A stretch of 64,000 bases of DNA from contig NC_134842.1 of assembly GCF_965363235.1 (NCBI RefSeq), positions 37,365,958 to 37,429,957 on the forward strand. The letters run 5' to 3'. Under the pieces are notes generated by a model, which worked only from the letters and a program-made list of their open reading frames with translations, was not told the origin of the DNA and did not search any database. This document shows, piece by piece, positions 18,801 to 58,625 of this stretch. Origin of the DNA: Mytilus galloprovincialis. Taxonomy: Eukaryota > Mollusca > Bivalvia > Mytilida > Mytilidae. The position numbers and the translations under genes were made by a program. Numbering within the stretch: the first letter of the stretch is position 1; the number at the start of each line of letters is the position of its first letter.

Positions 18801-21800
18801 CATGCTGGGCTAATATTAAATCACTGCTTTCTTTTTTTAGCATTAAAGATCAGTTGAAAAAACTAAGAGCACCAGTGAAGAGTTATGGAGACATCAAGAA
18901 AATTACACAGATAATGGTAAAAACATTTTCGGCTACTGGTAGCATCAAATTGGTTAAAATTTTACTGTGATTTTTCAAAATATCCTTATCGAGATTGGTC
19001 AGAGGTCCCAAATAATTATCTTTATTGTCATATTTGGAAAAAAAATAACATGATGTGTCAAAATCAGCTGATTTTTTTATCGTCGAAAAGAAATTTGGCA
19101 AGAATTTTTTACTGTTACTTGTCATGAAGGTACCCCCATTATTACCATCCAACAAGGTCTCCCACATTTAAGATCTAAATCAAATTCATTACATCAGTAA
19201 ATGTTTGTTTTCACAAGTAAGGGATACCATGTAACTTTTAAAGGAAACAACCATGCTCTGAAACCATGTAGATTGCAAATTACCTAAGAAATTTACATTT
19301 GACAAGAAAATGTCACATTTTGATATCCATGAAGTCTGCCAGGTTTGAATCAATATAGACAACCAATCACACTTGTCAAGTTACACAATTTCTGACAGGT
19401 TACAATATCTTTCAAGCCAAGAAATACACATATCTTATCAGATTAAAAAGTCATACTGTTGACCTTGCAAACCAACCGTCATTTTTACTTTTATAAGATT
19501 GTTATATTTAGGGGTTTCAGTTTCTAAGAAAGGGCAAATGCTATTTGAACCAAATGCTGGTAAAGTGATCTTACAAAAATGGTTCAGAAATATATCTGAT
19601 GCCATACACTAACTAATAATAAGATAGTTGTCTTATTGGCATTCATACCATAGGACCTTCAACAATGAACAAGCCCATACTGTATAGTAAATAAAAGTAG
19701 GCAGTAACATGAAAAAAATTCAAACAAATTCAAAAGAGAACCGATAACCTTAATTTACGATAATAAAATAAACGAGAAATGATTATGACACATTGCCTTT
19801 TATAAACAGAGTTGTTTTACATGACACATGAGCGTCACTGATGAGTCTTATGTAGACGAAACGCTCGTCTGGCGTACTAAATTATAATCCTGGTACCTTT
19901 GATAACTAGTCTAAAAAAATATTGTAGAGAACAGCTGCAGGAGAATCACAGAATGTTGCTAACCATGAAGAAATTCTAGAAGAAGTTGTTAGAGAGGAAG
20001 AAAAGTAAGATTTGATAATTAAAAGCATATGATGAACTGATAAGAGATTGTCAGTTTTTTCCAACAATATACTTTTATTTAAAAACAACAAACATTTATT
20101 AGAAATAGTCATAGAAATTCAGTGTCTAGGCCCAAAACAGAATAAAAACAATCTCATGACAAGAAGTTTTATTGGTGGAGGATAAGCTAGTGCTTGATTT
20201 AAATCAATAATTTTTGGAAAATGTCTTACAAAATATACCACATTATAGGTTACATGCACCTTTTTATACAACCGCAAAAATTTTTGCGTTCATATATTGG
20301 TATCACGTCTCATCGTCGTCATGGTCACCGTTGTCCAAAGACGGATGTTTCCCGGAAAATAACATTAGTATAAGTAAATAGAAATCAATAGAATTTTAAT
20401 GCAACGTTTATAACCACAAAAGGAAGCTTGGGATTAATTTTGGGGGTTATGGTCCCTAAGGTTTAGGAATTAGGGGTTCAAAGGGGCCCAAAACTAGCAT
20501 TTATCTTGTATTAGTACAAAAAGTTATGTATAAATCTTTCAATTGTTCTAAAATTGTACCACAATGTTTAATACAATAAGTCAAAGGTTGGGATATATTT
20601 TGTGGGTTATGGGGCACACAGTCTAGGAAAAAAGGACCAAAAAGGGACCAAAAACAAGCTTTTTTGTAGTTTCAAGACAATAAAGGAGTAAGTTCAGTAA
20701 GACCCCTTTTTGGCTTTTTTTAAAATCTTTCCCATAAAATAATTAATTCAAATAAAATAGACACTTAAGTATTTAAAAAGTGGTCAAAATCTTTCGTCAG
20801 ACGAACCTGAAATTTGAGGCCAAAATCGGTCATTACCGGACCTACTCCTTTCTTTTCCCAGAATGGTTGTTGAATCACCTAAAACCAATGCTTTATGAAA
20901 TCTTCTTTGAAAATTGGGAGTTATCTTTCTTTGTCCAGAATAGTCGTTGAATCAACTTAAATCAATCCTATATATAATATACAATGCAATATTCACTTTA
21001 CTACCAACTGATAAATTCAAGCAGTCTTTACCATTCAGTGATTACAAGCACTTAGATTACCATTCTAGGGTTTACAAATGGAAAAATTGAAGAATTTTTT
21101 AGTTTCTTTTCTCTTAACTTAAGTTTGTCTCAACTAAATTTGATGAAATGTGTATAAAATGCTTATTACCTCTAAACTCAGTTTAAGTTCAATTTTTGGC
21201 AGCTTCACTTTTACAGTTCTTGAGTTATGTCCCTTTATAATGTTATATGCTAGCGGGGGCATCATCTGTGTCTCTTTGGACACATTCTCCATTTTCAGTT
21301 ACTTTTGATTAATATTAATTTTAACCATGACTGTATGACATTTTATATTTTAATATTTTATGATGTATTTAAATGAGAAGCTATTGTTGCAAACTCCATT
21401 AGAAATTTGAATTGAGATCATTTTTGGAATGAGGGAAAGGGGGAGGTGAAACAAAATTGGGGGGGAGGGGGTCCAATTTTCTCATTTCAGATTTCAGAAA
21501 AAAAAAAGAAAATTTCATCAAATATTTTTTTTTGAGAGGATTAATATTCAACAGCATAGTGCATTGCTCAAAAGCAAAAAAAAAATTTAAGTTCATTAGA
21601 CCACATTCATTCTGTGTCAGAAACCTATGCTGTGTCAACTATTTTATCACAATCCAAATTTAGAGCTATATTCAGCTTGAATGTTGTGTCCATACTAGCC
21701 CCAACCATTCAGGGTTTGACCTCTGCGGTCATATAAAGCTGCACCCTGCGGAGCTTCTGGTCATTACCAGTAATACAAATGACCAGAATAAGTATCAAAA

Positions 21801-24554
21801 CACTACCATGAAGGTGATAAGCTGAAGTAATAGGTAGATGTATAAAAAATATCTGCACTTCATTTGTTACAAACGTTTTTTTCTCTTTTGTCTCATAACA
21901 TTAGTAAGTTGGAGCAAAGCAATTGTTTTCTTCGTCATTTATGCCTTATACTGGCAACATCATCTATTTTCATAAAAATAGTGGTCAATTCTGTAGATCT
22001 TGTTTCAGTTGTCAGTTTCATATTACAGTTCCATTTACTGGTCGACAAAATGTTTATTTTTCAGTAATTTCTTATGTGTAATTACATGTATGTCCCCTTG
22101 ATTTACCTGTTATTTGTGCAAATGTTATCCCCCCTGGCATAATTAAAGATTCTTTTATTAATGAATTAATATTACTGTATAATTTTTCTTTAATATGTCT
22201 TTTAAGAATTAGATCAAATGTTTTAAGCAAGTCCATTACTAAGAAAGTGATGTTTGTCTAAATGTTTGAAAATTAAAAAAATATATGCTGATGAATATAT
22301 ATCCATGACGGTGGCAAAAATAGATACTTGATTTAAAAGTGTCACAATATCAATCATGAATTTTATAATTAGTAAATGAGAACTAGCTACTGACATGCAC
22401 ATGGATGCCAGGAGCACTCCAATTGTTGACATTGCAAAAAGTAGAAGTGGTATGATTGACAATTAGACAATAGTCCACCAGAGCTAAAATGAAGCAGATA
22501 TAAGCAATTATAGGTCACTGTACAGCCTTCATCAAAGAGAAAAGCCCTATATTCGTCTACAAAATGAGAAAAGTAAAGGCTTAATTTTTTCAAAACAGTT
22601 TGCGAAAAACAAACATGACAGACATGAACCAACCACAATCAATGAACAATATGTTCTTGACTCAGGACAGTCACATAAAGAATGTGGCAGGGTTAAACAT
22701 GTTTGTGAGCACTCAACAATACCCACACCTAGGACAGTAGTGTTACAGCACACCATAAGAACAAACCTATTAACATGTTTTAGATGCCGCTCATAAATGG
22801 CATGATTAGAAAATAATTTTGTTGTCATTTTTCTCTTACAAACATTGTTTTTTTTCTAACAGTACAGTACAGCAGTATGAAATGGAACTGAACAGATTAC
22901 AGGCAAACAGTAATGAACAGACAGAAGTATGTTAATATATCTAAACTTTTTCATGTTTTTAGTACAGAAAGAGTTTTTTTGATATTTTTTTTAAAACTAA
23001 CATTGAAATAGATGACATAATATATATTCCCTATGCCTTTCATTAATTTATCAACACATTGAATTTACTGGTACTTCATGACAAAATCTATTATATTTAT
23101 TATTATACCCCCGCTTTAAAAAAGGGGGGGTATACTGTTTTACCTCTGTCTGTCCGTCAGTCCGTCAGTCAGTCCGTCCCATGAAACTTTCGTCACATTT
23201 TTCTCAGGAACTACACATCCACCCTTTCTGTAATTTAATATCAACATTTATATATGTCAGCCATACCGTGTGATGCGTTTTCAGATTCATCACTTGACAA
23301 CTTCCTGTTTACCGAACACTTGTATGATTTTACACATGATAGCCAAGTTGAAAATTTTCGTCACATTTTTCTCAGGAACTACAATACAAGGATTTCTGAA
23401 ATTTGGTTTCAGGGTTTATCTAAGTCAGCTATACCGTGTGATGCGTTTTCAGATTGATCACTTGACAACTTCCTGTTTACCGAACACTTGTATGATTTTA
23501 CACATGATAGCCAAGTTGAAAATTTTCGTCACATTTTTCTCAGGAACTACACATCCACCCTTTCTGTAATTTGGTATCAACATTTATATATGTCAGCCAT
23601 ACCGTGTGATGCGTTTTCAGATTCATCACTAGACAACTTCCTGTTTACCGAACACTTGTATGATTTTACACATGACAGCCAAGTTGAAAATTTTCGTCAC
23701 ATTTTTCTCAGGAACTACAATACAAGGATTTCTGAAATTTGGTTTCAGGATTTATATAAGTCAGCTATACCGTGTGATGCGTTTTCAGATTCATCACTTG
23801 ACAACTTCCTGTTTACCGAACACTTGAATATTTTTACACTATTAATATTATCCACTTGCGGCGGGGGTATCATCAGTGAGCAGTAGCTCGCAGTTTCACT
23901 TGTTTAAGCTGTGTCTTAAAAATCATCATATGTATCCTATTAGGTAAATAGGAATATTTTGAATATTTTGAAAAAAGAATCTTATACTAAAAATAGAGGA
24001 CACAAAATTTTGGAAGCCAAAAAAAAAACCAAACATAAATTCATGCTAGAAGATCTTTTTCTAACAAATAACATTTTTTTGTTATTTAGAACCAGAGTAT
24101 TTGTTATAAAGTATAAAGTTGGAGCATTCCTATAAAAAAAGTCTTAAAAAAAACCACTTGTGAGGATAAGGTGTAAATTTCACTCTTTAAATTTATAAGC
24201 GACTATTTTAACACAAACTAACAGAGGAATATTTCTTGTAAAATTTTGCTATTAGAATACTGTAAACCAACTTATTTTCGCGGATACTTAATTTCGAGTT
24301 TGACCCTTCCTAGACCACTTTGCGGCTATTTAATCTCACGATTTTCTGAAGTTAAATAAGGAATGATCCAAGTATTACATATTCGGGATGATTAATATTC
24401 GTGTTATTTTACTACTCGAGAATGTCGCGAAAATAAATCACTTGCGAAAATAAGTTGGTTTACAGTATTAATCTGTAATCGCTCTTTCCAGCTTCATCCA
24501 TTTCTGTGTAACTTCAAAGAAGAACTACACATACCACCAGTATCCTATAGGTAG
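9642..24554 (+). CDS. CENPQ: Centromere protein Q (CENP-Q), multi-exon gene
   Basis: Exons 9642-9834, 16812-16911, 17745-17822, 18841-18916, 19928-20004, 22863-22926 and probably 24492-24550 have AG/GT borders and join without a frame break. The product starts with a Lys-rich, disordered stretch of about 65 residues. Then comes KKWKVIHPSTQDYISECLE, matching the TWQPLSKSTRDHL segment I recall of vertebrate CENP-Q, then IILSKATNEGHDVDDLQDLL and GIKDQLKKLRAPVKSYGDI, the matching coiled-coil start. Exons 5-6 are acidic coiled coil (HEEILEEVVREEEN). CENP-Q pairs with CENP-U in the constitutive centromere network of the inner kinetochore. The model gives 216 residues against 268 in human; the human tail of about 50 residues has no certain counterpart here. 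If exon 7 is not spliced, TAG at 24552 ends the protein. Two tiny upstream ORFs (ATG at 9607 and 9612) precede the start. The assignment is by remembered similarity. Confidence 0.75.
10480..10520. repeat. Short perfect hairpin CATTCGGTCTGGTAA
   Basis: Two 15-base arms, 10480-10494 and 10506-10520, are perfect reverse complements around an 11-base loop. Variants of the motif (CATTCGGACCGG, ACCAGACCGATCC, AGTCTGGTAAAGG) recur at 11160-11257. Confidence 0.6.
13692..14870 (+). mobile_element. E3 element (ATGCCCCAC family), copy in CENP-Q intron 1
   Basis: It starts AAACAAGAATGTGTCCATAG then CATGCCCCAT, and ends GACGGACGAACGGACG ... AAATGGGGCAT. The interior carries two or three diverged internal repeats (CAGAAAGATTTTGAAAGCAG near 13908 and 14587). 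Confidence 0.72.
15832..16150 (+). mobile_element. E3 element, short copy in CENP-Q intron 1
   Basis: It starts AAACAAGAATGTGTCCCTAT then ATGCCCCACTTG. It ends with a GACGGACGGATGG-type run and GGTGGGGCATAAAAA. It has a single internal unit. Confidence 0.8.
16812..16911 (+). CDS. CENPQ: CENP-Q exon 2
   Basis: The acceptor is TCTTTTCAG and the donor AAG|GTAAGT. It encodes VKKKTFTGKQTKKWKVIHP and then STQDYISECLETGV, the Trp-centred segment that best identifies CENP-Q. Confidence 0.78.
17316..17596. mobile_element. TTAA-flanked MITE (piggyBac-like), copy 1
   Basis: It is 281 bp including TTAA at both ends. The ends are TTAAGGTGGTACCTAACACT and AGTGTTGGGTACCACCTTAA, nearly perfect inverted repeats. 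TTAA target use is the hallmark of piggyBac. There is no coding capacity. It lies in CENP-Q intron 2; a second copy of identical length lies at 38349-38629 in the opposite orientation. Confidence 0.85.
17745..17822 (+). CDS. CENPQ: CENP-Q exon 3
   Basis: The acceptor is TTTACTTTAAG and the donor AAAGG|GTAAGT. It encodes RIILSKATNEGHDVDDLQDL and then LSETVK, the start of the coiled coil. Confidence 0.78.
17965..18260. mobile_element. Inverted-repeat element, 296 bp, in CENP-Q intron 3
   Basis: The ends GCCAAGTTCGGATGGA and TCCATCCGAACTTGGC are perfect 16-base inverted repeats. A central hairpin GGAACCCTG / CAGGGTTCC lies near 18063-18089. The target duplication is unclear. It lies 143 bases after CENP-Q exon 3. 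Confidence 0.65.
18841..18916 (+). CDS. CENPQ: CENP-Q exon 4
   Basis: The acceptor is CTTTTTTTAG and the donor ATG|GTAAAA. It encodes GIKDQLKKLRAPVKSYGDIK and then KITQIM, and ends in phase 0. Confidence 0.78.
19620..19740 (-). repeat. SINE-like mussel repeat fragment
   Basis: The text ATTGGCATTCATACCATAGG and ACCTTCAACAATGAACAAGC is the reverse complement of the 3' part of the copy at 60295-60560. Confidence 0.55.
19797..19908. repeat. SINE-like mussel repeat (GAGTCTTATGTAGACGAAAC family)
   Basis: The text GATGAGTCTTATGTAGACGA, AACGCTCGTCTGGCGTACTA and ATCCTGGTACCTTTGATAAC is a repeat I recognise from mussel sequences. It ends about 20 bases before CENP-Q exon 5. Confidence 0.6.
19928..20004 (+). 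CDS. CENPQ: CENP-Q exon 5
   Basis: The acceptor is ATATTGTAG, with a poor pyrimidine tract because a SINE-like repeat ends about 20 bases upstream. The donor is AAAA|GTAAGA. It encodes RTAAGESQNVANHEEILEEV and then VREEE. Confidence 0.68.
20261..21764 (-). mobile_element. E2 element (TATACGACCGC family), minus orientation, with E5-related sequence inside
   Basis: It opens TTTTTATACAACCGC with the perfect palindrome CGCAAAAATTTTTGCG at 20272-20287, and closes with TGCGGTCATATAAAGCTGCA. The part around 20860-21290 matches the E5 element at 58309, including the palindromic GTGTCTCTTTGGACACA start, so it is a mosaic or a nested insertion. It lies in CENP-Q intron 5. Confidence 0.7.
22420..22770 (-). 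repeat. SINE-like mussel repeat copy in CENP-Q intron 5
   Basis: Blocks GCAAAAAGTAGAAGTGGTAT, TAGGTCACTGTACAGCCTTC and GACAGTCACATAAAGAATGT are reverse-complement relatives of the copy at 60295-60560. Confidence 0.6.
22863..22926 (+). CDS. CENPQ: CENP-Q exon 6
   Basis: The acceptor is TTTTTTTCTAACAG and the donor GAA|GTATGT. It encodes NTVQQYEMELNRLQANSNEQ and then TE, a predicted coiled coil, and ends in phase 0. Confidence 0.68.
23104..23904 (+). mobile_element. E4 element (ATACCCCCGC family), with 168-bp tandem units
   Basis: It starts ATACCCCCGCTTTAAAAAAG then GGGGGGTATA, a palindromic start, with CTGTCTGTCCGTCAG next. It ends GGCGGGGGTATCATCAGTGA then GCAGTAGCTCGC. CGTCACATTTTTCTCAGGAA recurs at 23191, 23359, 23527 and 23695, an exact 168-bp period. 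It lies in the CENP-Q intron after exon 6. Confidence 0.82.
24258..24467. mobile_element. TA-flanked MITE, 210 bp
   Basis: It has a perfect terminal inverted repeat of about 22 bases starting CTGTAAACCAACTTATTTTC, with TA at both outer ends. It ends 25 bases before CENP-Q exon 7. Confidence 0.82.
24492..24550 (+). CDS. CENPQ: CENP-Q exon 7 (probable; last exon or penultimate)
   Basis: The acceptor is GCTCTTTCCAG. It encodes LHPFLCNFKEELHIPPVSY, which fits the 'leucine-proline' stretch before the C-terminus of CENP-Q (LSLPELS in human). A donor TATAG|GTAGTG is possible. Read through instead, the frame meets TAG then TGA at 24552-24557, and an AATAAA lies near 24693. The exon starts 25 bases after a TA-flanked MITE. 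Confidence 0.5.
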
Positions 24555-24799
24555 TGAATCATCATCACCAGCAAAGAGGAAGGATTTATGTGCAATAACA
24601 AGCTTTGAAAACATTGTCGTAACAAGATGATCAACAGATTGGTTGATGCAGAACCAAAGATGACTATTTTTTAATGTAATATCAGATGGGAAATAAAAAA
24701 AGAACAATAATAGACATTTCTGTTTTGTCTCAAAAATGACCGGTCTGATTGTGGTTCGACCAAAATATTTCCTTGCAATGTCAGTGTCTATGATATAAT

Positions 24800-24977
24800 T
24801 CGCCGTTTCAGAATCTAATGCATTCTGGGTAATATTTTCAAAACTGTACACCAAAACGTCGTGATTGGTTAAAAACGTCCTAAACAATGGAAATTCAACC
24901 AATGACGTGACGTTATTTTCATTTTGGGGTACAAACAATGAAATTACCCATAGTCCTTTAGATTCTGAAACGGCCAA
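24800..24977. mobile_element. Fold-back MITE, about 178 bp
   Basis: Arms GCCGTTTCAGAATCTAA and TTAGATTCTGAAACGGC pair, with further matches inward (GGGTAAT / ATTACCC). A decayed relative seems present near 32500-32650. Confidence 0.6.
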
Positions 24978-25130
24978 TTGTACAATCACATGAATCAGCA
25001 GCTATAAAAAACAAGTGATACTAGTTGGTCACATGATTTTACCTTTTGTTTATGATATGATCAGATCCTTGTTGCTGATTCTATTTTTGTTTATGGATTA
25101 TAGTGACCTTTTTTTTTGTCTTCATCTTTT

Positions 25131-25429
25131 TATACCCCCGCTAAGAAAAAGGGGTATACTGTTTTACCTCTGTCTGTCCATCCATCAGTCCGTCAGTCCG
25201 TCTGTCCCATGAATAATTTTCATTACATTTTCGTCAGGAACTACAATACAATTCTAAAATTTGGTTTCAGGGTTTATATAAGTCAGCTACAATGTATACC
25301 ATGTGATGTGGTTTCAGATTCATCACGCAACAACTTCCTGATTACCGAACACTTGCATATTTTTCCACTATTAAAATTATCCACTTGTGGCGGGGGTGTC
25401 ATGAGCAGTAGCTAGCAGTTTCACTTGTT
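25131..25429 (+). mobile_element. E4 element, single-unit copy
   Basis: It starts TATACCCCCGCTAAGAAAAA then GGGGTATACTG, and ends GTGGCGGGGGTGTCATGAGC then AGTAGCTAGCAG. It has one internal unit. Confidence 0.82.
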
Positions 25430-25468: not shown

Positions 25469-27266
25469 ACTAGAGGGTCCAAGGACCCTGTGTCGCTCAC
25501 CTGATATTTTTATTTACAATTATTGCATGATAAATGCAACTGTTGTACTGTTGTTTAGTTTCAGAGATATAATACTAAAAAGTGCATTTGAAACCTATGT
25601 TTTATTTCAGCCATGTGGGCAGGCAGGGTCATCATACACAGTGGTCCCTGGATATCCTAGTGGTGATTTAAACCATGTTTGTTTAAATTCGACAGTTGTT
25701 TCAGGGGAGAATTTTTGTAAAATGTATCTAACAAGAAATGCAAAGTGATGAGAAAGTTGTGAAGTAGTTTTGTTGTTGCGCAACCCCCCTCCCCCCACTT
25801 TGCCAAAAAAAACAAAAAGGTAATAAAAAATTATCATATAAGGGCAATCTATCCTATTAATGATTTCTGCAAAATTCAGTTGATTGTGCAAGGGTTGTAT
25901 AGCCAGCTGAGGTCGTTAAAAACTCTCTTTCTTTTGTTGTTGCAGATAGATCTTGACCTGATAAACAATTTTACCACATGTCAGATTTGCTCTAAATGCT
26001 TTGGTTTTTGAGTGATAAGCCAAAAACTGCATTTTACCCCTATGTTCTATTTTTAACCATGGCGGCCATCTTGGTTGGTTGGCCGGGTCACCGGACACAA
26101 TTTTTAAACTAGATACCCGAATGATGATTGTGGCCAAGTTTGGTTTAATTTGGTCCAGTAGTTTCAGAGGAGAAGATTTTTGTAAAAGATAACTAAGATT
26201 TACGAAAAATTGTTAAAAATTGACTATAAAGGGCAATAACTCCTAAAGGGGTCAACAGACCATTTTGGTCATGTTGACTTATTTGTAAATCTTACTTTGC
26301 TGAACATTATTCCTGTTTACAGTTTATCTCTATCTATAATAATATTCAAGATAATAACCAATAACAGCAAAATTTCCTTAAAATTACCAATTCAGGGGCA
26401 GCAACCTATCAACGAGTTGTCTGATTCATCTGAAAATTGCAGGGCAGATAGATCTTGACCTGATAAACAATTTTACTACATGTCAGATTTGCTCTTAATG
26501 CTTCGGTTTTTGAGTGATAAGCCAAAAACTGCATTTTACCCCTATGTTCTATTTTTAGCCATGGCGGCCATCTTGGTTGGTTGGCCGGATCACCGGACAC
26601 AATTTTTAAACTAGATACCCCAATGATGATTGTGGCCAAGTTTGGTTTAATTTGGTCCAGTAGTTTCAGAGGAGAAGATTTTTGTAAAAGATAATTAAGA
26701 TTTACGAAAAATGGTTAAAAATTGACTATAAAGGGCAATAACTTCTAAAGGGGTCAACAGACCATTTTGGTCATGTTGACTTATTTGTAGATCTTACTTT
26801 GCTGAACATTTTTGCTGTTTACAGTTTATCTCTATCTATAATAATATTCAAGATAATAACCAAAAACAGCAAAATTTTCTCAAAATTACCAATTCAGGGG
26901 CAGCAACCTATCAACGGGTTGTCCAATTCATCTGAAAATTTCAGGGCAGATAGATCTTGACCTGAAAAACAATTTCATCCCGAGTCAGATTTGCTCTAAA
27001 TGCTTTGGTTTTTGAGTTATAAGCCAAAAACTGCATTTTACCCCTATGTTCTATTTTTAGCCATGGCGGCCATCTTGGTTGGTTGGGCGGGTCATTGGAC
27101 ACAATTTTTAAACTAGATACCCTAATAATAATTTTGGCCATGTTTGGTTAAATTTGGCCCAGCAGTTTCAGAGGAGAAGATTTTTGTAAAAGTTAACGAC
27201 AACGGATGCCGGACGCCAAGTGATGAGAAAAGCTCACTTGGGCCTTTGGGCCAGGTGAGCTAAAAA
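25469..27266 (+). mobile_element. E1 element (GCTCACC family), left arm of inverted pair
   Basis: It starts ACTAGAGGGTCCAAGGACCC, a palindrome, then TGTCGCTCACCT. It ends with a TGGGCCTTTGGGCCA-type hairpin and AGGTGAGCTAAAAA, so GCTCACCT and AGGTGAGC form the inner inverted repeat. Inside are roughly 502-bp tandem units (GCAGATAGATCTTGACCTGA near 25943, 26445 and 26947). No gene. Confidence 0.8.
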
Positions 27267-27371: not shown

Positions 27372-29159
27372 TTTTCAGCTCACCTGGCCTAAAAGGCCAA
27401 GTGAGCTTTTCTCATCACTTGGCGTCCGGCGTCCATCGTCGTCCGTCATCATCGTTAACTTTTACAAAAATCTTCTCCTCTGAAACTACTGGGCCAAATT
27501 AAACCAAACTTGGCCACAATCATCATTGGGGTATCTAGTTTAAAAAATGTGTCCGGTGACCCGCCCAACCAACCAAGATGGCCGCCATGGCTAAAAATAG
27601 AACATAGGGGTAAAATGCAGTTTTTGGCTTATAACTCAAAAACCAAAGCATTTAGAGCAAATCTGACATGGGGTAGAATTGTTAAACAGGTGAAGATCTA
27701 TCTGCCCTGAAATTTTCAGATGAATCGGATAATCTGTTGTTGGGTTGCTGCCCCTGAATTAGTAATTTTAAGGAAATTTTGCTGTTTTTGGTTATTATCT
27801 TGAATATTATTATAGATAGAGATAAACAGTAAACAGCAATAATGTTCAGCAAAGTAAGATTTATGAATAAGTCAACATGACTGAAATGGTCAGTTGACCC
27901 CTTTAGGAGTTATTGCCCTTTATAGTCAATTGTTAACCATTTTTCGTAAATCTTAGTAATCTTTTACAAAAATCTTCTCCTCTGAAACTACTTGGCCAAA
28001 TTAATCCAAACTTGGCCACAATCATCTTTTGGGTTAGTAGTTTGAAAAATGTGTCCAGTGACCCGGCCATCAAACCAAGATGGCCACCATGGCTAAAAAT
28101 AGAACATGGGGTAAAATGCAGTTTTTGGCTTATAACTCAAAACCCAAAGCATTTAGAGCAAATCTGACATGGGGTAAAATTGTTTATCAGTTCAAGATCT
28201 ATCTGCCCTGAAATTTTCAGATGAATCGGACAACCCGTTGTTGGGTTGCTGGCCATGAATTAGTAATTTTAAGGAAATTTTGCTGTTTTTGGTTATTATC
28301 TTGAATATTATTATAGATAGAGATAAACTATAAACAGCAATAATGTTCACCAAAGTAAGATTTACAAATAAGTCAACATGACTGAAATGGTCAGTTGACC
28401 CCTTTAGGAGTTATTGCCCTTTATAGTCAATTTTTAACCATTTTTCGTAAATCTTAGTAATCTTTTACAAAAATCTTCTCCTCTGAAACTACTTGGCCAA
28501 ATTAATCCAAACTTGGCCACAATCATCTTTTGGGTTAGTAGTTTGAAAAATGTGTCCGTGACCGGGCCATCCAACCAAGATGGCAGCCATGGCTAAAAAT
28601 AGAACATGGGGTAAAATGCAGTTTTTGGCTTATAACTCAAAAGCATTTAGAGCAAATCTGACATGGTGTAAAATTGTTTATCAGGTTAACATTTATCTGC
28701 TCTGAAATATTTAGATGAATCGGACAACCCGTAGTTGGGTTGCTGACCCTGAATTGTTAGTTTTAAGGAAATTTTGCTGTTTTTAGTCATTATCTTGAAT
28801 ATTATTATTGATAGAGATAAACTGTAAACAACAATAATGTTCAGCAAAGTAAAATTTACAAATAAGTCAACACGACCGAAATGGTCAATTGACCCCCTTA
28901 GGAGTTATTGTTCTTTATAGTCAATTTTTAACAATTTTCATAAAATTTGTAAATTTTTACTAACATTTTCCACTGAAACTAATGGGCCAAGTTCATTATA
29001 GATAGAGATAATTTTAAGCAGCAAGAATGTTCAGTAAAGTAAGATGTACAAACACATCACCATCACCAAATCACAATTTTGTCATGAATCCATCTGCTTC
29101 CTTTAATATTGACATAGACCAAGGTGAGCGACACAGGCTTTTTAGAGCCTCTAGTTTTG
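27372..29159 (-). mobile_element. E1 element, right arm of inverted pair
   Basis: The reverse complement of the E1 plan. It starts at the 3'-end hairpin (AGCTCACCTGGCCTAAAAGG) and ends with AGGTGAGCGACACAGGC and the terminal palindrome. It carries about three tandem units. Confidence 0.8.
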
Positions 29160-29660: not shown

Positions 29661-29687
29661 GAAAACCAACAGTCTAATCTATATAAA

Positions 29688-45300: not shown

Positions 45301-48300
45301 ACTTTATTTTAAGAGGGTTACACAGTTAGCTATATAACTAATCTTCCCTGAGGCCCTCATCATGAGAAATCAAACAAAATGCAAACATATACATTGCATA
45401 CATTAGTATAAAAAGTCAAGTATGATAATAATGTTTAATACAACTTGATAAAATGTGATGAAAAAAAAAAAAAATAAAAAAAATAAACATGATGACATGA
45501 TCAGTTTTTAATATTATTGATATAGCTAGGTTGATTTCAATAAATGATCTGTTATTTTGTATTTGAAAGAATTAACATTTGTAATATTTCTTAACGGTAT
45601 TGGCAAATTATTCCACAAGAATGGTCCAGAATACATAAAAGATTTTTTGAACAATTCTGTTTTTGGTTTAGGGAGTATGAGGTTTCCTTGAACAGCATTT
45701 CTCAAGGGGTATGGATTTCTGTCTGAAACATAATGAAACTTGTTAGTAAGATATGATGGGGCATCATTTTTAATGCACTTAAATGTCATCACTAACTTAT
45801 GATATTTATTCATACCTTTAATGTATAACTTCTCATTTCATAAATGTTTTTACCATTTCTTGGTTCAAGTTTTGGCCAAAAACTAAATGCTAACAAGATC
45901 TGATTCTTTCTGGATCGTAACATTTTATTTCTAGCTAATCTGTATTCTATAAAGTCCTGAAAAAAAGAAAGGTAAAATGTTTGTAAATAATCGTAATATA
46001 TCAAATTGTAAAAAATGTAGACCACCAAAGGAGTCTATGATATAAATATTAGTAGGATTTATGATTAACAAAAATGTTGTATGTGACTATGTAAGTTCGA
46101 GTAAGATAAAACTGAGGCCTTTTCTTAAAGAGTGTGAAATTTTCATTTATTGTCATGTCAGTGAAGATTTCATATCTTATTTTGTTGAATAAATATAACA
46201 AGCAAAATCACAATAAACCCTATAGTTATAAATAAATTACATCTACTCTTTTCCCAACATAATAATGAAGGAAGCATACAGCCTATATAGCTAGCTATCT
46301 GTCCTGACAGTTTTAAGTTTTTTTTTCAATACTCTTATAGTTTTACTTACTTAAATTGAGAAAGGAATAAATAGGCAACAAAGAGGCTCAAAATAGAAGT
46401 CTTGTCTTGAAAAAGAGAAACAAGTATACATGATACAGATATCTACTCTAAAAACCTTGATAGCTTCTTGGAATCACAATTATTCATATCATCTAAATTT
46501 TTGTTGTAGATTTCAATATATGTATCAATTATTATTTTTTTTACTCAACTACATTTTGATATAAAATTACATTTCTAATCTCAAACATATTCTTTTATTA
46601 TTTTTGTTATAATTTCATTTAAGAATTCCAAGACAATAAACTAACCTGATCTGTTCTGTAAATTTCTGTAGCATTGTTTAACACAGGATAACCACCTTTA
46701 TATTCCCATATGTGTACTGAAATATATATGTTAATAATTACATTAGATGTATGTTTCATTATAATACGTTATTCTGATTGGCTAACTAGCAATCTCGTGA
46801 TATTCCTTAATCAATTGCATTACACAATACAACTTTTCATTCATGATGACACAGGGCTTTCCATTGAAGCCGGTAGCCGGCGGAAATCCGCCGCTTACGG
46901 TGGCTTCAAGTGCCGGCTACTTCACTGACAAAAATATAAATTAAAAAAGAAAAAAATATCTTTTTCAAATGTTTACAGGCAGCTGAGAGACGTATATTGT
47001 CGCAAAGTCGCGGTCACGATAAACAAGGATGAAAGTCAGTGTTTACCTTGGGCTAAATATAGTTCACATGAATTCAGGTCACTGATTGGTTGTCTATTTA
47101 AAGTCAGATCATGCATCTTTTCTTTTCAAAGATAACAAGAGAGACGTTCCGGTGGCCATTGAAGGATAACAATAAAGACGTTCCGATGGTCATTAACTCT
47201 CTGGCGGCTTTTTTTGGCTTTTAAAACGTGAAGACAATCAGATAGGATGACAATCTTATGTTATGGAATAATATTAGTCAAATTAAAGAAAGTGTAGTAG
47301 ATCATATTGTTCAGAATCTGGAAAACAAGTATCTTTCAAAGCCCACGTGGTGTTCAGAGAATCAAGGTCAAAAACGAAAGTAGAATATTGTCGACTCGAC
47401 CTCAAATAAATAACATTTCCAAATGATTTATTTATCCGACTTATTGAACAGTTTACAAAAAAAAGAGAAAATCAGAGGATATATCAATTTTCTGTCAATG
47501 CTTGAGAAATAATTGTATGATTTAAATACGCGTAACAGTCTTTAGAGAGAAAAGGGGGGTTATTTGTTTACAAATGCAAGTAGTTAGGCAAAATAAATCG
47601 ATCAAGATATCTAACAAACCGGATGATTATTTAAATAAAACTCCTTTAAAAGTAAATGAATTTTAAGCATAAGGTAATGAAAATAAAAAACTAACTTAAA
47701 AAAAAAATGAAATTTCTTTGAGTTTTTTTTTTTTCTTTCTTTAATTTCATACATAAACAAGAATGTGTCCACAGTACACGGATGCCCCACTCACACTATC
47801 ATTTTCTATGTTTAAAGGACTGTGAAATTGGAATAAATTCTCTAATTTGGCATTAAAATTAGAATGATCTTATCAAAGGGAACATGTATACTAAGTTTCA
47901 AGTTGATTGGACTTCTACTTTATCAAAAACTACCTTGACCAAAAACTTTAACCTGAAATTTGCACTATCATTTTCTATGTTCAGTGAACCGTAAAATTGG
48001 GGTCAAAACTCTAATTTGGCATTTAAATTAGAAAGATCATATCATAGGGCACATGTATACTATGTTTCAAGTTGATTGGACTTCAACTTCATCAAAAACT
48101 ACCTTGACCAAAAACTTTAACCTGAAGCCAAAAACTTTAACCTGAAATTTGCACTATCATTTTCTATGTTCAGTGAACCGTAAAATTGGGGTCAAAACTC
48201 TAATTTGGCATTTAAATTAGAAAGATCATATCATAGGGCACATGTATACTAAGTTTCAAGTTGATTGGACTTCAACTTCATCAAAAACTACCTTGACCAA

Positions 48301-51300
48301 AAACTTTAACCTGAAATTTGCACTATCATTTTCTATGTTCAGTGAACCGTAAAATTGGGGTCAAAACTCTAATTTGGCATTTAAATTAGAAAGATCATAT
48401 CATAGGGCACATGTATACTAAGTTTCAAGTTGATTGGACTTCAACTTCATCAAAAACTACCTTGACCAAAAACTTTAACCTGAAGCCAAAAACTTTAACC
48501 TGAAATTTGCACTATCATTTTCTATGTTCAGTGAACCGTAAAATTGGGGTCAAAACTCTAATTGTGCATTTAAATTAGAAAGATCCTATCATAGGGCACA
48601 TGTATACTAAGTTTCAAGTTGATTGGACTTCAACTTCATCAAAAACTACCTTGACCAAAAACTTTAACCTGAAGCGGGACAGACGGACGAACGGACGAAC
48701 GGACGAACGAACAGACGGACGAACGAACAGACGGACGAACGGACGCACAGACCAGAAAACATAATGCCCCTCTACTATCGTAGGTGGGGCATAAAAATGG
48801 TCATTTGAAAGATTAAATTAGGTGCCAGGAGATTGAGAATGCAGGATTTTGCTCTATTTATGCCAGAGCTTCTGGGGGCCTTGAGCGCCCCCCCCCCAAA
48901 CCCCCTGCCAGAAGGCACCAAGCTTACAGCTTGGTGGGCGTCCGGCTTCGCCGAACGCATGTTATAGCCGCCTATAATTTTAATTGAGCCTTCTACTTCA
49001 ATTTCAATGGAAAGCCCTGATGACACGAGGTCCCACAATAAAGTGCACAGGTAAATGAAATAAAAACTTGATAAAAGGCGTGTTTTCATGATCCTATAGG
49101 TAAAAATGTAATTATAAGTATTGAATGCTTTTTTTTGTAACTTTATAGGGTTGTAAAAGCGTTGACCGTGCGCACATTTTTAGTATGAAGCGCTTCCGCG
49201 CTTCATACAAAATGTACTTCGGTCAACGCTTTTACACCCCAATAAATTTACAAAAAAGAGCATTCAATTCTTAAATAATAACTGAAGATTTATTCAAGGT
49301 TCAACTGTCTAAGGGCAAAATAATGCATGTTCAGCAACAAAAAGAAACTAAATATCTGGTAAACTAACAATTCTGAAATAGGATGATCTATTTAATGTTT
49401 TATCCATGGCCTACTGTTCAGATAATGATTGATAACACCAATAAGTTTTATTGTGCTTCTATTTCATTTTAAAATTACAGTATTTGAATCTATAAAAACA
49501 TCATTGACCTTTTACAAATGAAGGATTGAACAATTTTTCAAAGTATAATACAAATTTTTACTCATCTATCATCTAATTTTCTTTGAGGCTCAGACACCAC
49601 TCTGTACAATCCCTATCACTGAATTATAACGTACATACAAAATTAAAATGCTGTGGTATGATTGCCTATGAGACAACTATGCAACTGAGTCCAACATGAC
49701 ATAGATGTAAGGTCACCTTACAAACTTCAATTATGAGCAAAGCCCATATTGTAAAGTAAGCTATATATAAGGCCCTGATACAAAAAATGTAAAACAATTC
49801 AAAAGAGAAAACCAACAGCCTGATTACGTACTTGCTTCATCCTGATCTCCTATTTCCACTGTAAAACTGGCCACTAAATTTGCACCTGTTTTCTTTTCAT
49901 GCATCAGACCTTGAAACCTTGAGCTGAAATAAAAACACCATTGATAATATACACACACACAAAAATAATAGTAATATGATTAACAGTGTATAATAAAATG
50001 ATGGCTAATAAAAACATTTGCACCTTACAAGTTTTAAATCAATACATGTACATCAAAACTATAAACCTTCAGGAAACTTGTATAAAACTCTCTCAGTTAT
50101 TCTCATTCCAGTAAAATGTTTTAGCCTCGAAAGAATTAAGTTCAAGGTTTTGTTCCAATGTAGGAAAATGTATAACTATCAGAAAATATTAGTCAAAACG
50201 TCCTTCTGTCTTATAAATATGATCAACAACATTATCTTCAATACTTAAATTACTTTTCAGTATTTACAACAGATGTTAAACTGTATATTAATGATACCAA
50301 AATAATGTATAGAAACTGAAAAGTGTTTAAACCATGAAAGAGTTCAAATTGGCTGGTGATGAATGGCAAGGAAATTAATTTCTCACAGACCATTTGAACC
50401 AAGTGATCTAGAAATAAAGATGATGACGACAATCGCTGTTTTATGTCCAATGGCCAATTACTGTGGATTCCTTTATTTTCGTGGGTATCATTTTTTGTGG
50501 ATTCAGGAAATCTTACACTTATGTGGATATTTAACTTCATGGTTTTGCTGTCGTCTGCATACAAGCATATAGAAGATTTGTCATTTATTGAACATTTAAA
50601 TTCGTCGTTCATCTGTACCCACAAAATCAACGAAAATTGGTATCCAATGAAAAACTAAGAATCCACAGTAAAGGCATATTCAGAATGAAAACATATTGAT
50701 GAAATATGAATATAAACTTTACTTTAAATGAGACAAACACACAAGCTGGATCTGTAACATGCAAGTTCATAAAGTAACATTCCTTGTTCTTACTCTTAAA
50801 TACTTAGGGAAGAAGCCACAAATACCAACTTTTATAAATCTTAAGTTGATTCAGAAGTGGATAGATCCTCCTCCTGCATTGAAGTGAGACCGACAAAAAA
50901 ATACAATGTCTTTTAAATAAAGATCTCTCCTCCCTGTAAACAAACTTCCATATGGTTCTGAGATGCTATTTTAAAAGCAGATTTTGAGGTAGGAGCCGTA
51001 TTTCAGTCATCAGAAGCAATTGAGTTTTTCAAGTACTGTTCTTCATTGAAGTAAAAAACATATATTGTACATATGATAAATTTCAGAAAAACCATAAAAT
51101 AAAAAACAAACAAATTCATAGGCAATAAATTCCTCATTTGGGCAAATAATTTTCACAAGAAATAAGTAAATATAAAGTAGATTACAGAAGCATGCTCTTT
51201 AAAAAAAAAAACTGGTCAGATCAAGCACTAAATCTACTGTGATCAGGAATCAGGTATTTTTTTGTTATTCAATTCTTGAGATAAATATGCTGAATGTTGC

Positions 51301-52496: not shown

Positions 52497-53713
52497 CTAA
52501 AAATAAGAAATTTCACAAATTAATACAATTTCAAGGTCAAATGGCAAAATAAAATAGCTACTACATGTATATAACTAAATTGAAAACCAAATACTCTTGC
52601 AAATCACTAAAAAAGAATATACAATATCTTGCTTGCACTATCACATATTAAGTGAACCTTGAAATGTTGATCAAAACCTTTATTTCCCATTTCAATATTC
52701 AGTTAACCCTTTAAATTGGTCAAAACCCTTATTTTGCTTAAAGGGAAAATTCGCAAATTATTTTTTTTCATATTTTCAAAATATTAAAGGATTATTCGTA
52801 TAGATGAGTGAGTTAATCGATTTTTAAATCAGACTAACAATTCTCGAAACAAATCGCCATCTTGACCCGATTTCGATACTATGAACCATGTGACATCTCA
52901 TTACAAAAAAGTTCTAGTTCATGGCATGACATGTCCGTTAATTAATCAGTGTAAAAATGACTTCTCAAGATTATGGATATTCTGAGTAATGGAAAAAAGC
53001 CTACATTGTTTCCCCGATCCAGTGAAAAAGAAAGAATTGTGCCAGACTTGGATCTACAACCTAAACTTACAAGAAGCAAGCTTTACAAGTACCAAGAACA
53101 AGGTTGTGTGTGAGGACCATTTTGAAACATCTTGTTTCGAAGGAAATATGATGGTAATTATAACTTTTTTCTTGGTACATGTAGTTATATCTAAAGTTAT
53201 TGTATAGATAGTTATTGCTTCTCTGTTGTAATTTTATCTCTGGTAGAGATTTACAACCATGCCTTATTTATTTGTATAGCTTTTTTGCCGGTTCATGTTC
53301 AAGTGGATTAGTATAGAATAATTCCGACTTAGATTATTAAAATAAGAAGTATGAAAAGCAGACAATTTCATAAAATCAAGTATTGCTAAGATTGATTAGA
53401 ATATTTAAAAATTCTTTATGAAATGGTAAACAAAATTTTAATCTCATGTTACAACAAATTACCCTTAACCAGAATTTAACCTGATCTTAATTCATAGTAA
53501 AATACAGCTAAAGAAAGTACACAAAATTTTATTTTGAATACTGTCTTTTTGGGCATGACAACCTTCTGTTCAAATTTCATAAAATTCTGAAAATTTTGAA
53601 ACAGAATTTAACCACACCCTATGTTAAACATTGAAAAACTGATACTGATCATTCTGATTGAATCTAGGATCTTGCTTTTGCAACATATATATATATAATG
53701 TGCCTTGTAAATG
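52497..53713. other. Upstream of the first seen NIPSNAP exon; holds the THAP remnant
   Basis: Apart from the THAP remnant I see no coding signal. The NIPSNAP start exon was not recognised here or farther right. Confidence 0.4.
52929..53151 (+). pseudogene. Degraded THAP-domain first exon
   Basis: The frame from 52989 reads LHCFPDPVKKKELCQTWIYN, then VVCEDHFETSCF: the Pro, Trp, C-x2-H and Phe positions of a C2CH THAP zinc finger, which binds DNA. A donor ATG|GTAATT follows at 53151, where THAP first exons often end. The N-terminal Cys pair is not in this frame. Just upstream, in another frame, ATG at 52956 reads MTSQDYGYSE, resembling a THAP N-terminus but with a Tyr where Cys is expected, and it stops. 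So the exon looks decayed. THAP domains occur in host transcription factors and in P-element-type DNA transposons; which source applies here is not visible. It lies antisense to and upstream of the first seen NIPSNAP exon. Confidence 0.55.
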
Positions 53714-54187
53714 AGAACCAGATGCTCCTAGCAGGGTGCAGCTTTATACGACCGCAGAGGTTGAACCCTGAATGCTGGGACTAGTATGGAAACAACATTC
53801 AAGCTGGATACAGCTCTGAATTTGGATTGTGATTAAATAGTTGACACAGCATAGGTTTCTGACACAGAAGGAATGTGGTCTAATGAAATTAAAAAGTTTT
53901 ATTTGCTTTTGAGCAATTCACTATGCTCTTGAATATTAATCCTCTAAAAAAAAAAGCATTTGAAGAAATTTTCTTTTTAATTTCTGAAATCTGAAATGAG
54001 AAAAATTAAATCCCCCCTTATTTTTTCACCCCCCCCCCCCTTTTCCCTTATTCCAAAATGATCTCAATTCAATTTCTAATGGCGTTTGCAACAATAACTA
54101 CTCATTTAATTACATCATAACATATTAAAATATAAAATGTCATACAGTCATGGTTAAAATTAATATTAATTAATAGTAACTTCTAAA
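53714..54187 (+). mobile_element. E2 element, 5' part only
   Basis: It starts ACCAGATGCTCCTAGCAGGG then GCAGCTTTATACGACCGCAG. It loses the E2 3' end and runs directly into the start of E1 at 54188. Confidence 0.65.
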
Positions 54188-56162
54188 AACAAGAGGCTCT
54201 CAAGAGCCTGAATCGCTCACCTGAATTTTTTTGGTTTAATCTCATATCAATGATTATTTTGGCTTTTCAATTTATTTAAATGTTCTTTGAATCGTCCTAT
54301 TTTCTTCAAAAGCAAAAAAAAAATCATTTTCTCCTATGTTCTATTTTAGCCATAGGAGCTATGTTTCTTGACATACAAGGAAATGAAATATAAAATTTAC
54401 ACTAGATACTCTGAAACTCTAAAACTCATTTAGCCTAAGTTTGGCTGAAATTGATACAGCAGTTTCAAAGGAGAAGATTTTTTAAAGTAAGTCAACATGA
54501 TGAACAAATTGTGAAAAAAAGTCTTTAAAGGGCAATAACTCCTTAAGAGGTCAATTGACAATTTTGGTCAAATTGACTTATTTGTAGATCTTACTTTGCT
54601 TAACATTTTTGCTATTAACAGTTTATCTGTATCTATAATAATATTCAAGATAATGACCAAAAACTGCAAAATTTCCTTAAAATTACCAATTAAGTGGCAG
54701 CAACCCAACAATGGTTTGTTTGATTCATCTTAAAATTTCAGGGCTGATAGATCTTGACCTAATGAACTTTTTAACCCCTGTCAGATTTGCTCTAAATGCT
54801 TTCGTTTTTGAGATATAAGCCAAAAACTGCATTTGACCCCTATGTTCTATTTTAAGTAACGGTGGCCATGTTTTTTGACGGATCAAAAATCGAAGCACAC
54901 ACTTTGTGCAGGATAATCTAAGGAACAATCATGCTAAGTTTCATCCAAATCCATTCAGCAGTTTCAGAGGAGAAGATTTTTTAAAGTTAGCAAATATGAT
55001 GAACAAATTGTGAAAAATTGTCATTAAAGGACAATAACCCCTTAAGGGGTCAATTGACAATTTTGGTCATATTAACTTATTTGTAGATCTTACTTTGCTG
55101 ATCATTTTTGCTGTTTACAGTTTATCTTTATCTATAATAATATTCAAGATAATGACCAACCAGGTGCTCCGCAGGGCGCAGCTTTATACGACCGCAGAGG
55201 TCGAACCCTGAACAGTTGGGGCAAGTATGGACAAAACATTCAAGCATGATACAGCTCTGAATTTGGATTGTGATCAAATTTTTGACATTACATGGTTTTT
55301 TTTTACACAAAACAAATGCCAAGATTTTACAAATCAATTAAAGATTTCTTCTTCAAACTTTTTAAATCTAAAATTAAATAGTTGACACAGCATAGGTTTC
55401 TGACACAGAATGAATGTGGTCTAATGAACTTAAAAGGTTTTTTTTGCCTTTGAGCAAATCACTATGCTGTTGAATATTAATCCTCTCAAAAAAATGTTTG
55501 AAGAAATTTTCTTTTTATTTATGAAATCTGAAATGAGAAAAATTTACCCCCCCCCTTTTTTTTCACATCCCCGTTTCCCTTTTTCAAAACTGATATCAAT
55601 TCAAATTTCTAATGGAGTTTGCAACAATAACTACTCATTTAAATACATCATAAAATATTAAGATGTAAAAAAACTGCTTGTTATCACTGAATGGTAAAGA
55701 TTATTTAAATTTATCAGTTGGTAGTAAAAAGTGTATATACATTGTATATTGTATATAACAAAGATTTAAGTTGATTCTGGACAAAGAAAGATAACTCCAA
55801 ATAAAAAAAATTCTTGCTATTGCACAAATAGGATATTTCTTGCTTACTATTCTGGACAAAGAAAGATAACTCTAATTAAAAAAAAATTTGCTATTTCACA
55901 ATATTGTGCAATTAAATATTTCTTGCCATTGCACAATACTGTGCAATTGAAAAGACTTGCTATTGCACAATACTTAATATAATAATTTTAGATCCTGATT
56001 TGGACCAACTTGAAAACTGGGCCCATAATCAAAAATCTAAGTACATGTTTAGATTCAGCATATCAAAGAGGCCCAAGAATTCAATTTTTGTTAAAATCAA
56101 ACTTAGTTTAATTTTGGACCCTTTGGACTTTAATGTAGAATTTGAAATTTGAAAACAGGACC

Positions 56163-56798
56163 AACAAGAATGTGTCCAAAGTACACGGATGCCCCACTCA
56201 CACTATCATTTTCCATGTTCAATGGAGCATGAAATTGGATAAAAAATATAATTAGGCATTAAAATTAGAAAGATAATATCATAGGGAACATGTGTACTAA
56301 GTTTCAAGTTGATTGGACTTCAACTTCATCAAAAACTACCTTGACCAAAAACTTTAACCTGAAACATGCACTTTCATTTTCTATGTTCAGTGGACCGTGA
56401 AATTGGGGTCAAAAGTTTAATTTGGCTTTAAAATTAGAAAGATCATATTATAAGGAACATGTGTACTAAGTTTCAAGTTGATTGGACTTCAACTTCATCA
56501 AAAACTACCTTGACCAAAAACTTTAACCTGAAAAACTTTAACCTGAAACATGCACTTTCATTTTCTATGTTCAGTGGACCGTGAAATTGGGGTCAAAAGT
56601 TTAATTTGGCTTTAAAATTAGAAAGATCATATCATAGGGAACATGTGTACCAAGTTTGAAGTCGATTGGACTTCAACTTCATCAAAAACTACCTCGACCA
56701 AAAACTTTAACCTGAAGCGGGACAGACGGACGAACGAACGGACGAACGAACGGACGCACAGACCAGAAAACATAATGCCCCTATGTGGGGCATAAAAA
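56163..56798 (+). mobile_element. E3 element nested in E2
   Basis: It starts ACAAGAATGTGTCCAAAGTA then GATGCCCCACTC, and ends GACGAACGAACGGACG ... TATGTGGGGCATAAAAA. It has about three internal units with ACTTTAACCTGAAACATGC. Confidence 0.82.
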
Positions 56799-57796
56799 TG
56801 AAGAATCTACATACACAGTTAGATTTGGCATATCAAAGAACCCCAAGGATTCAATTTTTGATGAAATCAAACAAAGTTTAATTTTGGACCCTTTGGACCT
56901 TAATGTAGACCAATTTGAAAACTGGACCAAAAAAACTTCAATAATCAAGAATCTAAGTACATTTTTAGATTCAACATATCAAAGAACCCAACCGATTCAT
57001 TTTTTGTCAAAATCAAACTAAGTTTAATTTTGGACCCTTTGGACCTTAATGTAGACCAATTTGAAAACGGGACCAAAAGTTGAGAATCTACATATACAGT
57101 TAGATTCGGCATATCAAAGAACCCCAATTATTCAATTTTGATGAAATCAAACAAAGTTTAATTTTGGACCCTTTGGGCCCCTTTTTCCTAAACTGTTGGG
57201 ACCAAAACTCCCAAAATCAATACCAACCTTCCTTTTATGGTCTTAAGCCTTGTGTTTAAATTTCATAGATTTGTATTTACTTATACTAACATTATAGTGC
57301 GAAAACCAAGAAAAATGCTTATTTGGGTCCCTTTTTGGCCCCTAATTCCTAATCTGTTGGGTCCTAAACTCCCAAAATAAATACCAACCTTCCTTTTGTG
57401 GTCATAAACATTGTGTTTAAATTTCATAGATTTCCATTTACTTAACCTAAGGTTATTGTGCAAAAACCAAGAAAAATGCTTATTTGGGCCCTTTATTGGC
57501 CCCTTATTCCTAAACTATTGAAACCAAAACTCCCAAAATCAATCCCAATCTTTCTTTTGTGGTCATAAACCTTGTGTCAAAATTTCATAGATTTCTATTA
57601 ACTTAAACTAAAGTTATGGTGCGAAAACCAAGAAAATGCTTATTTGGGCCCTTTTTGGCCCCTTATTCCTAAAATGTTGGGACCAAAACTCCCAAAATCA
57701 ATACCAACCTTCCTTTTATGGTCATAAACCTTGTGTTAAAATTTCATAGATTTCTATTCACTTTTACTAAAGTTAGAGTGCGAAAACTAAAAGTAT

Positions 57797-57806
57797 TCGG
57801 ACGACG

Positions 57807-57840
<34 letters not shown>
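57797..57840. repeat. (GAC)n microsatellite at the 3' end of the nested E2
   Basis: A near-perfect run of GAC triplets just before the E2 3' terminus. Confidence 0.9.
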
Positions 57841-57841
<1 letters not shown>

Positions 57842-58308
57842 AGACGCCAACGTGATAGCAATATACGACGAAAATTTTTTCAAAATTTGCGGTCGTATAA
57901 AAACTGCAAAATTTCCTTAAAATTACCAATTAAGTGGCAGCAACCCAACAATGGTTTGTTTGATTCATCTGAAAATTTCAGGGCTGATAGATCTTGACCT
58001 AATGAACATTTTTACCCCCATGTCAGATTTGCTCTAAATGCTTTCGTTTTTGAGATATAAGCCAAAAACTGCATTTGACCCCTATGTTCTATTTTAAGTT
58101 ACGGCGGCCATGTTTTTTGACGGTTCAAAAATCGAAGCACACACTTTGTGCAGGATACTCTAAGGAACAATCATGCTAAGTTTCATTCAAATCCATTCAG
58201 TAGTTTCAGAGGAGAAGATGTTTGAAAAATTGTTAACGACGACGACGACGGACGCCAAGTGATGAGAAAAGCTCACATGGCCTTTTAGGCCAGGTGAGCT
58301 AAAAATGG

Positions 58309-58625
58309 GGAATGTGTCCAAAGGATACAGATGATGCCCACGCTAGCATATAACGTTATGAAGGGACATAACTGAAGAACTGTAAAAGTGAAGCTGCCAA
58401 AAATTAAGAGGTAATAAGCATTATATACAAATGTACACATTTCATTAAATTTAGTTGAGACAAGCTTAAGATGAGAGAACAGAAACTAAAAAATTCTTCA
58501 ATTTTTCCGTTTATAAAGGGGCATAACCCTAGAATGGTAATCAAAGTGCTTGTCATCACTGAATGGTAAAGACTGCTTTAATTCATCAGCTGGTAGTCAA
58601 GTGAATATTGCATTGTATATTGAAA
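58309..58625 (+). mobile_element. E5 element, 5' part
   Basis: It starts GAATGTGTCCAAAGGATACA then GATGATGCCCACGCTAGC, sharing its first ten bases with E3. The rest matches the reverse complement of 20860-21290. Its continuation appears at 59250-59346 after the intervening MITE. Confidence 0.6.

Follow-up and report, generated by a model that had tools for sequence, protein, structure and literature searches.

Helentron-type repeat families at a Mytilus galloprovincialis locus, and an autonomous Helentron as the probable parent of one of them

Bivalve genomes hold many short, satellite-bearing elements of the HINE (Helentron-associated interspersed element) or pearl type. In the available portions of the literature, from which all published comparisons below are drawn, mite HINEs are internal-deletion derivatives of Helentrons (PMC4067079), the bivalve pearl elements are assigned to the HINE class (PMC7492417), and the Helitrons of oyster were concluded to be probably inactive, since no autonomous element was detected (PMC7992393). 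A bivalve HINE tied to an autonomous Helentron appears nowhere in the available portions of these three articles or of PMC8268682, PMC10294476, PMC11136912 and PMC12818792; Repbase and subscription papers lay outside this search, and such elements may be catalogued there.

Here we analyse five repeat families, E1 to E5, in a stretch of 64,000 nucleotides of Mytilus galloprovincialis (assembly GCF_965363235.1, contig NC_134842.1; G000:C5:37365958-37429957), hereafter the window, and in the genome to which it belongs (1.385 Gb searched, 331 contigs). GC content is about 32%, and chromosome-sized contigs run up to C14; together with the pearl-like repeats this is as expected of a mussel, Mytilus having 14 chromosome pairs. 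Very probably E1 to E4 and, more weakly, E5 represent separate families of non-autonomous Helentrons, i.e. HINEs, with E1 derived by internal deletion from an autonomous Helentron lineage, which we call group C. That the families are ordinary in kind, of the HINE or pearl type, is well supported for E1-E4. New are the tie between E1 and a coding Helentron and the finding that the satellite units of E1 are part of that Helentron; through this link, the mover of such elements and the origin of their satellites become directly testable.

The preliminary description of the window had proposed one architecture for all five families, resembling Helentron-derived or pearl elements. This stands for E1-E4, on account of their architecture, a preference for TT sites and no clear fixed-length target duplication, to which E1 adds its autonomous partner; for E5 the case is weak. 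E1-E3 had been described reversed and E4 forward, and after flipping E1-E3 the four families agree better than originally stated. In one orientation, each comprises a T-run, a subterminal repeat in a hairpin, a GTC/GTCC microsatellite, tandem units, a second subterminal repeat, a 3' palindrome (also present in E5) and a terminal CTNG followed by TT. The TAAAAA end attributed to E1-E3 is present and corresponds to the 5' T-run read backwards. The "5' palindrome" of E1 was correct in sequence and becomes the 3' palindrome once flipped; that of E4, equally correct in sequence, is its 5' subterminal-repeat hairpin, and E4 also bears a 3' palindrome, GAGC-AGTA-GCTC, which had been missed. The inverted repeats just inside the ends and the quoted hairpins were found in the printed sequence, and the GACGGACG/GAC runs were confirmed in the window. 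The same applies to the tandem units of E4 (168 bp), E3 (169/189 bp) and E2 (146 and 161 bp), and to the 502-bp unit of E1, for which self-alignment gave offsets of about 502.

The subterminal inverted repeats near both ends measure 8 bp in E1, 12 bp in E2, 9 bp in E3 and 10 bp in E4 and are mutually unrelated. The 5' hairpin of E1 is AGCTCACCTGGCCCGAAGGGCCAAGTGAGCT, and the hairpin arms are TATACGACCGC..GTCGTATA in E2, ATGCCCCACC..GGGGCAT in E3 and TATACCCCCGC..GGGGGTATA in E4. Nine end sequences were folded as single-stranded DNA and compared with shuffles. The 5' hairpins folded far better than shuffles (z of -5.0, -5.1, -5.4 and -4.5 for E1 to E4, respectively), and the 3' palindromes of E4 (-2.5) and E5 (-2.6) better than most of them. 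Furthermore, of the 13 stem pairs in the 5' hairpin of E1 (9 distinct sequences, 13 copies), two had changed on both sides with pairing retained; position 8-24, a 14th, is unpaired throughout, and two further pairs are each broken in one sequence. The E1 3' palindrome likewise has two pairs in which changes on both sides preserve the pairing (5 distinct sequences, 20 ends).

A search for a Rep/helicase-coding element with matching termini, as suggested in the preliminary description, succeeded for E1 and, in the stretches covered (see below), found none for E2-E5. The PF14214 profile gave 138 matches in the genome. Downstream of the gene at C1:86686890, the sequence AGGTGAGCGACACAGGGTCCTTGGACCCTCTAG followed by TT is the 3' end of the E1 copy at 25470-27261 of the window. 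This group C 3' end is identical over 36 bases in all five copies read (L077, L079-L082), and pairwise homology of the copies stops there, except that C1 and C13 also resemble each other in their E1 flank. The last 33 bases of the five Helentron ends equal those of the window copy, and 54 of its last 60 bp match. At the opposite side, all four group C 5' ends read (L078, L091, L092, L093) carry the E1 5' hairpin, the GTCC microsatellite and the 502-bp units, with differing left flanks. Copies C10 and C1:132 agree at 98.6% over their first 1.8 kb, and their homology begins at the T-run before the hairpin. Both ends were read in two copies, which span about 16.8 kb (C1) and 19.1 kb (C2). Moreover, the stretch between units and gene (L078:2160-5000) is common to six further copies (40 of 5692 candidates scored), and all 28 PF14214 matches covering profile positions 70-191 lie behind matches to one non-coding and N-terminal coding stretch. 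The copies in the window are as follows.

8866-8898, plus strand: lone E1 3' end, outside the coordinates of the preliminary description
13695-14870, minus strand: E3 copy, interrupted; 5' end placed by eye
15835-16148, minus strand: E3 copy with a single unit; 5' end placed by eye
20265-21760, plus strand: E2 copy containing an E5-like stretch at 20976-21298
21257-21290, plus strand: E5 3' end with subterminal repeat GGGGGCAT and palindrome TGTGTC..GACACA; no TT after it
23104-23902, plus strand: E4 copy with 168-bp units
25131-25427, plus strand: E4 copy with a single unit; 3' end placed by eye
25470-27261, minus strand: E1 copy of the AGGGTCCTTGGACCCT 3' palindrome subtype with 502-bp units; 33/33 and 54/60 to the Helentron 3' end
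27377-29154, plus strand: E1 copy, its first 1563 bp aligned at 87% with the C2 Helentron 5' end; 28/33 to the Helentron 3' end
29689-32061, minus strand: E1 copy that includes several units of 502 bp; 25/33 to the Helentron 3' end
36453-37259, minus strand: short E2 copy
47758-48792, minus strand: pearl-like E3 copy with ATGCCCCAC repeats, GTCC microsatellite and units of about 170 bp
53718-53755, minus strand: 3' end of an outer E2 copy
54190-58300, minus strand: E1 copy within an E2/E5 copy, split by the E2 copy at 55160-57899; a related uninterrupted site lies near 21296
55160-57899, minus strand: E2 copy lying within E1 and itself containing tandem units and a nested E3 copy; 42 matches to uninterrupted E1 units span its junction
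56165-56793, minus strand: nested E3 copy, within the E2 copy at 55160-57899; 5' end placed by eye

Three window E1 copies compared whole were about 84-89% identical to the first 1.3-1.6 kb of the parent; of these, copy 25470 alone was also aligned by BLAST with the last 61 bp of the parent, at 88-90%. We therefore interpret E1 as having arisen from it by internal deletion. In 17 of the 28 group C matches the open frame reaches 2482 codons or more; the sequence read covers the frame on either side of its central part. The protein contains a Rep domain (PF14214), a match to PIF1 helicase and, in its C-terminal stretch, the sequences AESRL, GDFN and SDH, which we take to be endonuclease motifs. 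Near the N-terminus there is a match to Herpes_teg_N, presumably an OTU-like domain. Judging by these sequences, a group C Helentron probably moves E1. Its protein would nick at T-rich sites and peel or copy one strand from the 5' hairpin end, transposition would stop at the 3' palindrome, and insertion would adjoin TT without a fixed duplication, with E1 contributing its ends in cis and nothing else. E2, E3 and E4 presumably rely on other Helentrons with matching ends.

It should be added that the 3' non-coding part of group C (L077:2222-2840) contains a tandem repeat of 29-30 bp, and that the C2 Helentron sits in a 47-bp minisatellite (L091:1-112; L080 from 943), seemingly derived from the exon-intron border of a gene which we take to be TFIIB-like. 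Two further loci, L009 and L010, scored 215 and 199 bits with PF14214 against at most 128 bits for all others and may belong to a different, more typical Helitron lineage.

The order of events at the satellite could also have been the reverse: the 502-bp units may have arisen in, or been captured by, a HINE, the Helentron having gained them later via recombination with E1. Published HINEs do bear unrelated units on related flanks (PMC7492417, available portion), which speaks for such a gain; the presence of two or three units at the corresponding position of all four group C 5' ends read speaks against it, and we consider this course of events unlikely, albeit with a real chance of being right. 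A bolder proposal would have the parent Helentron carrying and dispersing the satellite, so that what would pass for a scattered 502-bp repeat forms, in structure, the 5' end of a rolling-circle transposon that is autonomous and seems to have been active recently, and E2-E4 might also share the enzyme via the geometry of their ends; we would give it only a slim chance.

Insertion sites were assessed at 64 3' ends of E1-E4 in the sequence read, namely 20 of E1 (five of them Helentron ends), 6 of E2, 7 of E3 and 31 of E4. TT adjoined 61 of the 64 (20, 5, 7 and 29, respectively), with a background of 12.3%; CTNG was partly fixed by the search patterns, TT was not, and L066 and L067 have an identical flank. 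After the sole E5 3' end comes AT. An apparent hot spot of insertion is the T5 run of the E1 unit (GCTGTTTTTGGTTATTATC), which 6 of 26 E1, E2 and Helentron 3' ends directly adjoin (L002, L008, L077, L079 twice, and window 55160).

Forty copies had both ends and flanks; their joined flanks were searched for empty sites, and ten gave a spanning match. At J6 and J8 (E2) and at J28, J36 and J38 (E4) the occupied site was longer by about one T; J8, where the E2 copy at 55160 sits in E1, had 42 spanning matches in uninterrupted E1 units. The weak matches J18, J24 and J4 showed one, two and no bases at the junction, respectively. J9, an artefact in which an outer 3' end was paired with an inner 5' end, and J27, a simple-repeat self-match, were set aside, and no spanning match was obtained for the three paired copies of E3. 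A permutation test of left versus right flanks in 26 E4 copies, with k from 2 to 8, revealed no clear duplication (lowest p 0.031, at k 6, by letters).

Could a single Helentron enzyme move all families, reading only the shared geometry of a 5' hairpin, a 3' palindrome and CTNG followed by TT? The preliminary description had suggested one mobilising enzyme, and the common plan and ends of E1-E4 (CTNG with the above proviso) point in that direction, as does the single 5' end shared by E1 subtypes with differing palindromes. At L072:176-712, upstream of a Helentron gene, the 5' half of E4 is fused to the 3' end of E3, which might reflect a chimeric transposition but is explained equally by nested insertion with deletion. 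The subterminal repeats, however, differ wholly among E1-E4, the group C ends read carry those of E1 only, and group A Helentrons appear to end in another palindrome, AAGGTGGAAAGACCTTCAATTGTTCTCTGAACAATTGG followed by TTTTT (GG before TTTTT). The suggestion thus found no support, and we regard a common enzyme as improbable. As to the group A end, three of five other copies stop aligning 18-40 bases past the palindrome, and two continue through a second unit. This 3' end is followed by a unit of about 880 bp (L083:1076-1990), which also occurs in tandem arrays elsewhere in the genome.

The search for partners covered the 5 kb downstream of a single gene from each of groups A, A2, B and H and the 3.5 kb upstream of eight genes, one of them from group C. 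None of these stretches showed a coding element flanked on both sides by E2, E3 or E4 ends; for most groups they stop short of the true ends, and this result is not evidence of absence. Several candidate ends were rejected. Copies of A2 hold an E5-like element with units of about 157 bp, whose 3' end was present in three of four windows fetched; homology runs past it, and it was dismissed as the A2 end. The E3 pieces that precede the L069 and L071 genes were interpreted as insertions rather than ends of groups A or B. The E4 5' end in L072, 4.8 kb upstream of the Rep domain, was discarded as a group C terminus, being fused to the E3 3' end, with the true 5' end 9.3 kb upstream. For the 3' end of group H there were too few copies to fix an end. 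A full-length E4 whose left flank (CATAAT) is similar occurs in another group C copy (L042).

Genome-wide end counts refer to exact patterns on both strands, with variants uncounted and the reversed pattern as control. They amounted to 2286+2303 (4589) for E1, 1839+1873 (3712) for E2, 2041+1972 (4013) for E3 and 766+735 (1501) for E4, with zero in every one of these controls. The exact E5 pattern occurred only 1+1 times, and its abundance in this form is not supported. The E1 subtypes differ in their 3' palindromes (AGGCTCTTGAGAGCCT, AGGGTCCTTGGACCCT, AGGCTCTTTAGAGCCT) and have the 5' end and units in common (L001-L008, L077-L085 and the window); the 4589 matches represent a subtype palindrome other than that of the group C Helentron. 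The E1 palindrome AGGCTCTCAAGAGCCT occurs exactly at window positions 29693 and 54194, and six times on both strands at up to two mismatches (shuffled mean 0.03).

A number of observations weigh against the Helentron assignment and the descent of E1 from group C. The 3' palindromes of E1 (z of -1.2), E2 (-0.6) and E3 (+0.5) are not clearly above shuffles, and the subterminal repeats of E1 (8 bp) and E3 (9 bp) are shorter than the published 11-15 bp. The endonuclease Pfam scores lie under the curated cut-offs (22.7 versus 27.4 bits; 19 versus 24.5). A partner was found for E1 only, so that E2-E5 rest on architecture. Within E1, a single one of 15 non-Helentron ends is identical to the Helentron end; the other 14 match at 25-29 of 33 and 30-37 of 60 positions, below the published subfamily rule of 80%. 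Eight of these 14 were sampled via another palindrome, and the counts are not subtype frequencies. BLAST gave no 3' match for the E1 copies at 27377 and 29689. The exact 3' link consequently holds for one E1 subtype, and the other E1 copies, with a related but different palindrome, may have had a sister Helentron, as yet unseen, as parent. With regard to target sites, the E1 empty site J3 differs by eight bases, and the flanks of E1 and Helentron copies hinted weakly at a 5-bp repeat (exact in 3 of 8 copies, p 0.056; by letters p 0.024), to be read against 28 comparisons made altogether. Contrary to this hint, four E1/Helentron ends situated in another E1 unit's T5 run keep only three T's on the right (L002, L077, L079 twice); of these, L077 and L079:967 are alike in their flanks and maybe not independent.

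The preliminary description had named fixed-length duplications as the observation at odds with its view. Such duplications would be expected if the families were cut-and-paste miniature inverted-repeat transposable elements (MITEs) or foldback elements served by a DDE transposase, a reading to which the inverted repeats near both ends and the 5-bp hint in E1 would lend themselves; pearl was indeed described as a MITE before its re-categorisation (PMC7492417, available portion). The 26 E4 copies and the informative nested E2 and E4 sites show no fixed duplication, the ends are asymmetric, and the E1 termini occur on a Rep/helicase element, which renders this explanation highly improbable. That E1 copies merely neighbour group C genes by accident, as might be feared since E1 is very common and the first 5' end read was inside another E1 copy, can hardly be reconciled with ends alike in 4/4 (5') and 5/5 (3') copies read whose flanks mostly differ, with homology of C10 and C1:132 starting at the T-run, and with sequence behind the units kept in six more copies.

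Elsewhere in the window, a 45-bp unit is repeated 19 times at 43997-44860 and a 135-bp unit six times at 3202-4041. Self-alignment of the window displayed two long inverted repeats, at 49111-49276 (about 166 bp, 84% to its own reverse complement) and at 60622-60862 (about 240 bp, 75%). An Rfam scan of the window returned no matches at gathering scores.

Among the described systems, pearl and the Mytilus element MgE, compared here by description only, resemble the present families in their core repeats of about 160 bp and short arrays, with E3 being nearest in plan. The available text on HINE/DINE-1 elements (PMC4067079) reports the same succession of subterminal inverted repeats, an inverted repeat beside the 5' one, a microsatellite, central tandem repeats and a 3' stem-loop, along with insertion at T-rich or TT sites without target modification and origin by deletion from an endonuclease-bearing autonomous Helentron; E1 departs from it in its 8-bp subterminal repeat, as opposed to 11-15 bp, and in its 502-bp units. 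Cg_HINE of Crassostrea gigas, in the portion of PMC7492417 available, has a left flank with a subterminal repeat, a complementary repeat and a GTCY/GTCC microsatellite, a right flank with a subterminal repeat and a palindrome, and TT insertion sites, and the units of about 170 bp in E3 and E4 resemble those of 160-180 bp cited for oyster. According to the same portion, no autonomous Helentron could be related to Cg_HINE, whereas E1 has one, units included. Finally, the autonomous Helentrons treated in the available part of PMC4067079 share with group C the Rep, helicase and C-terminal endonuclease arrangement, with OTU-type proteases reported in some; group C may differ from them in its length of 17-19 kb and in the satellite units inside its 5' end.

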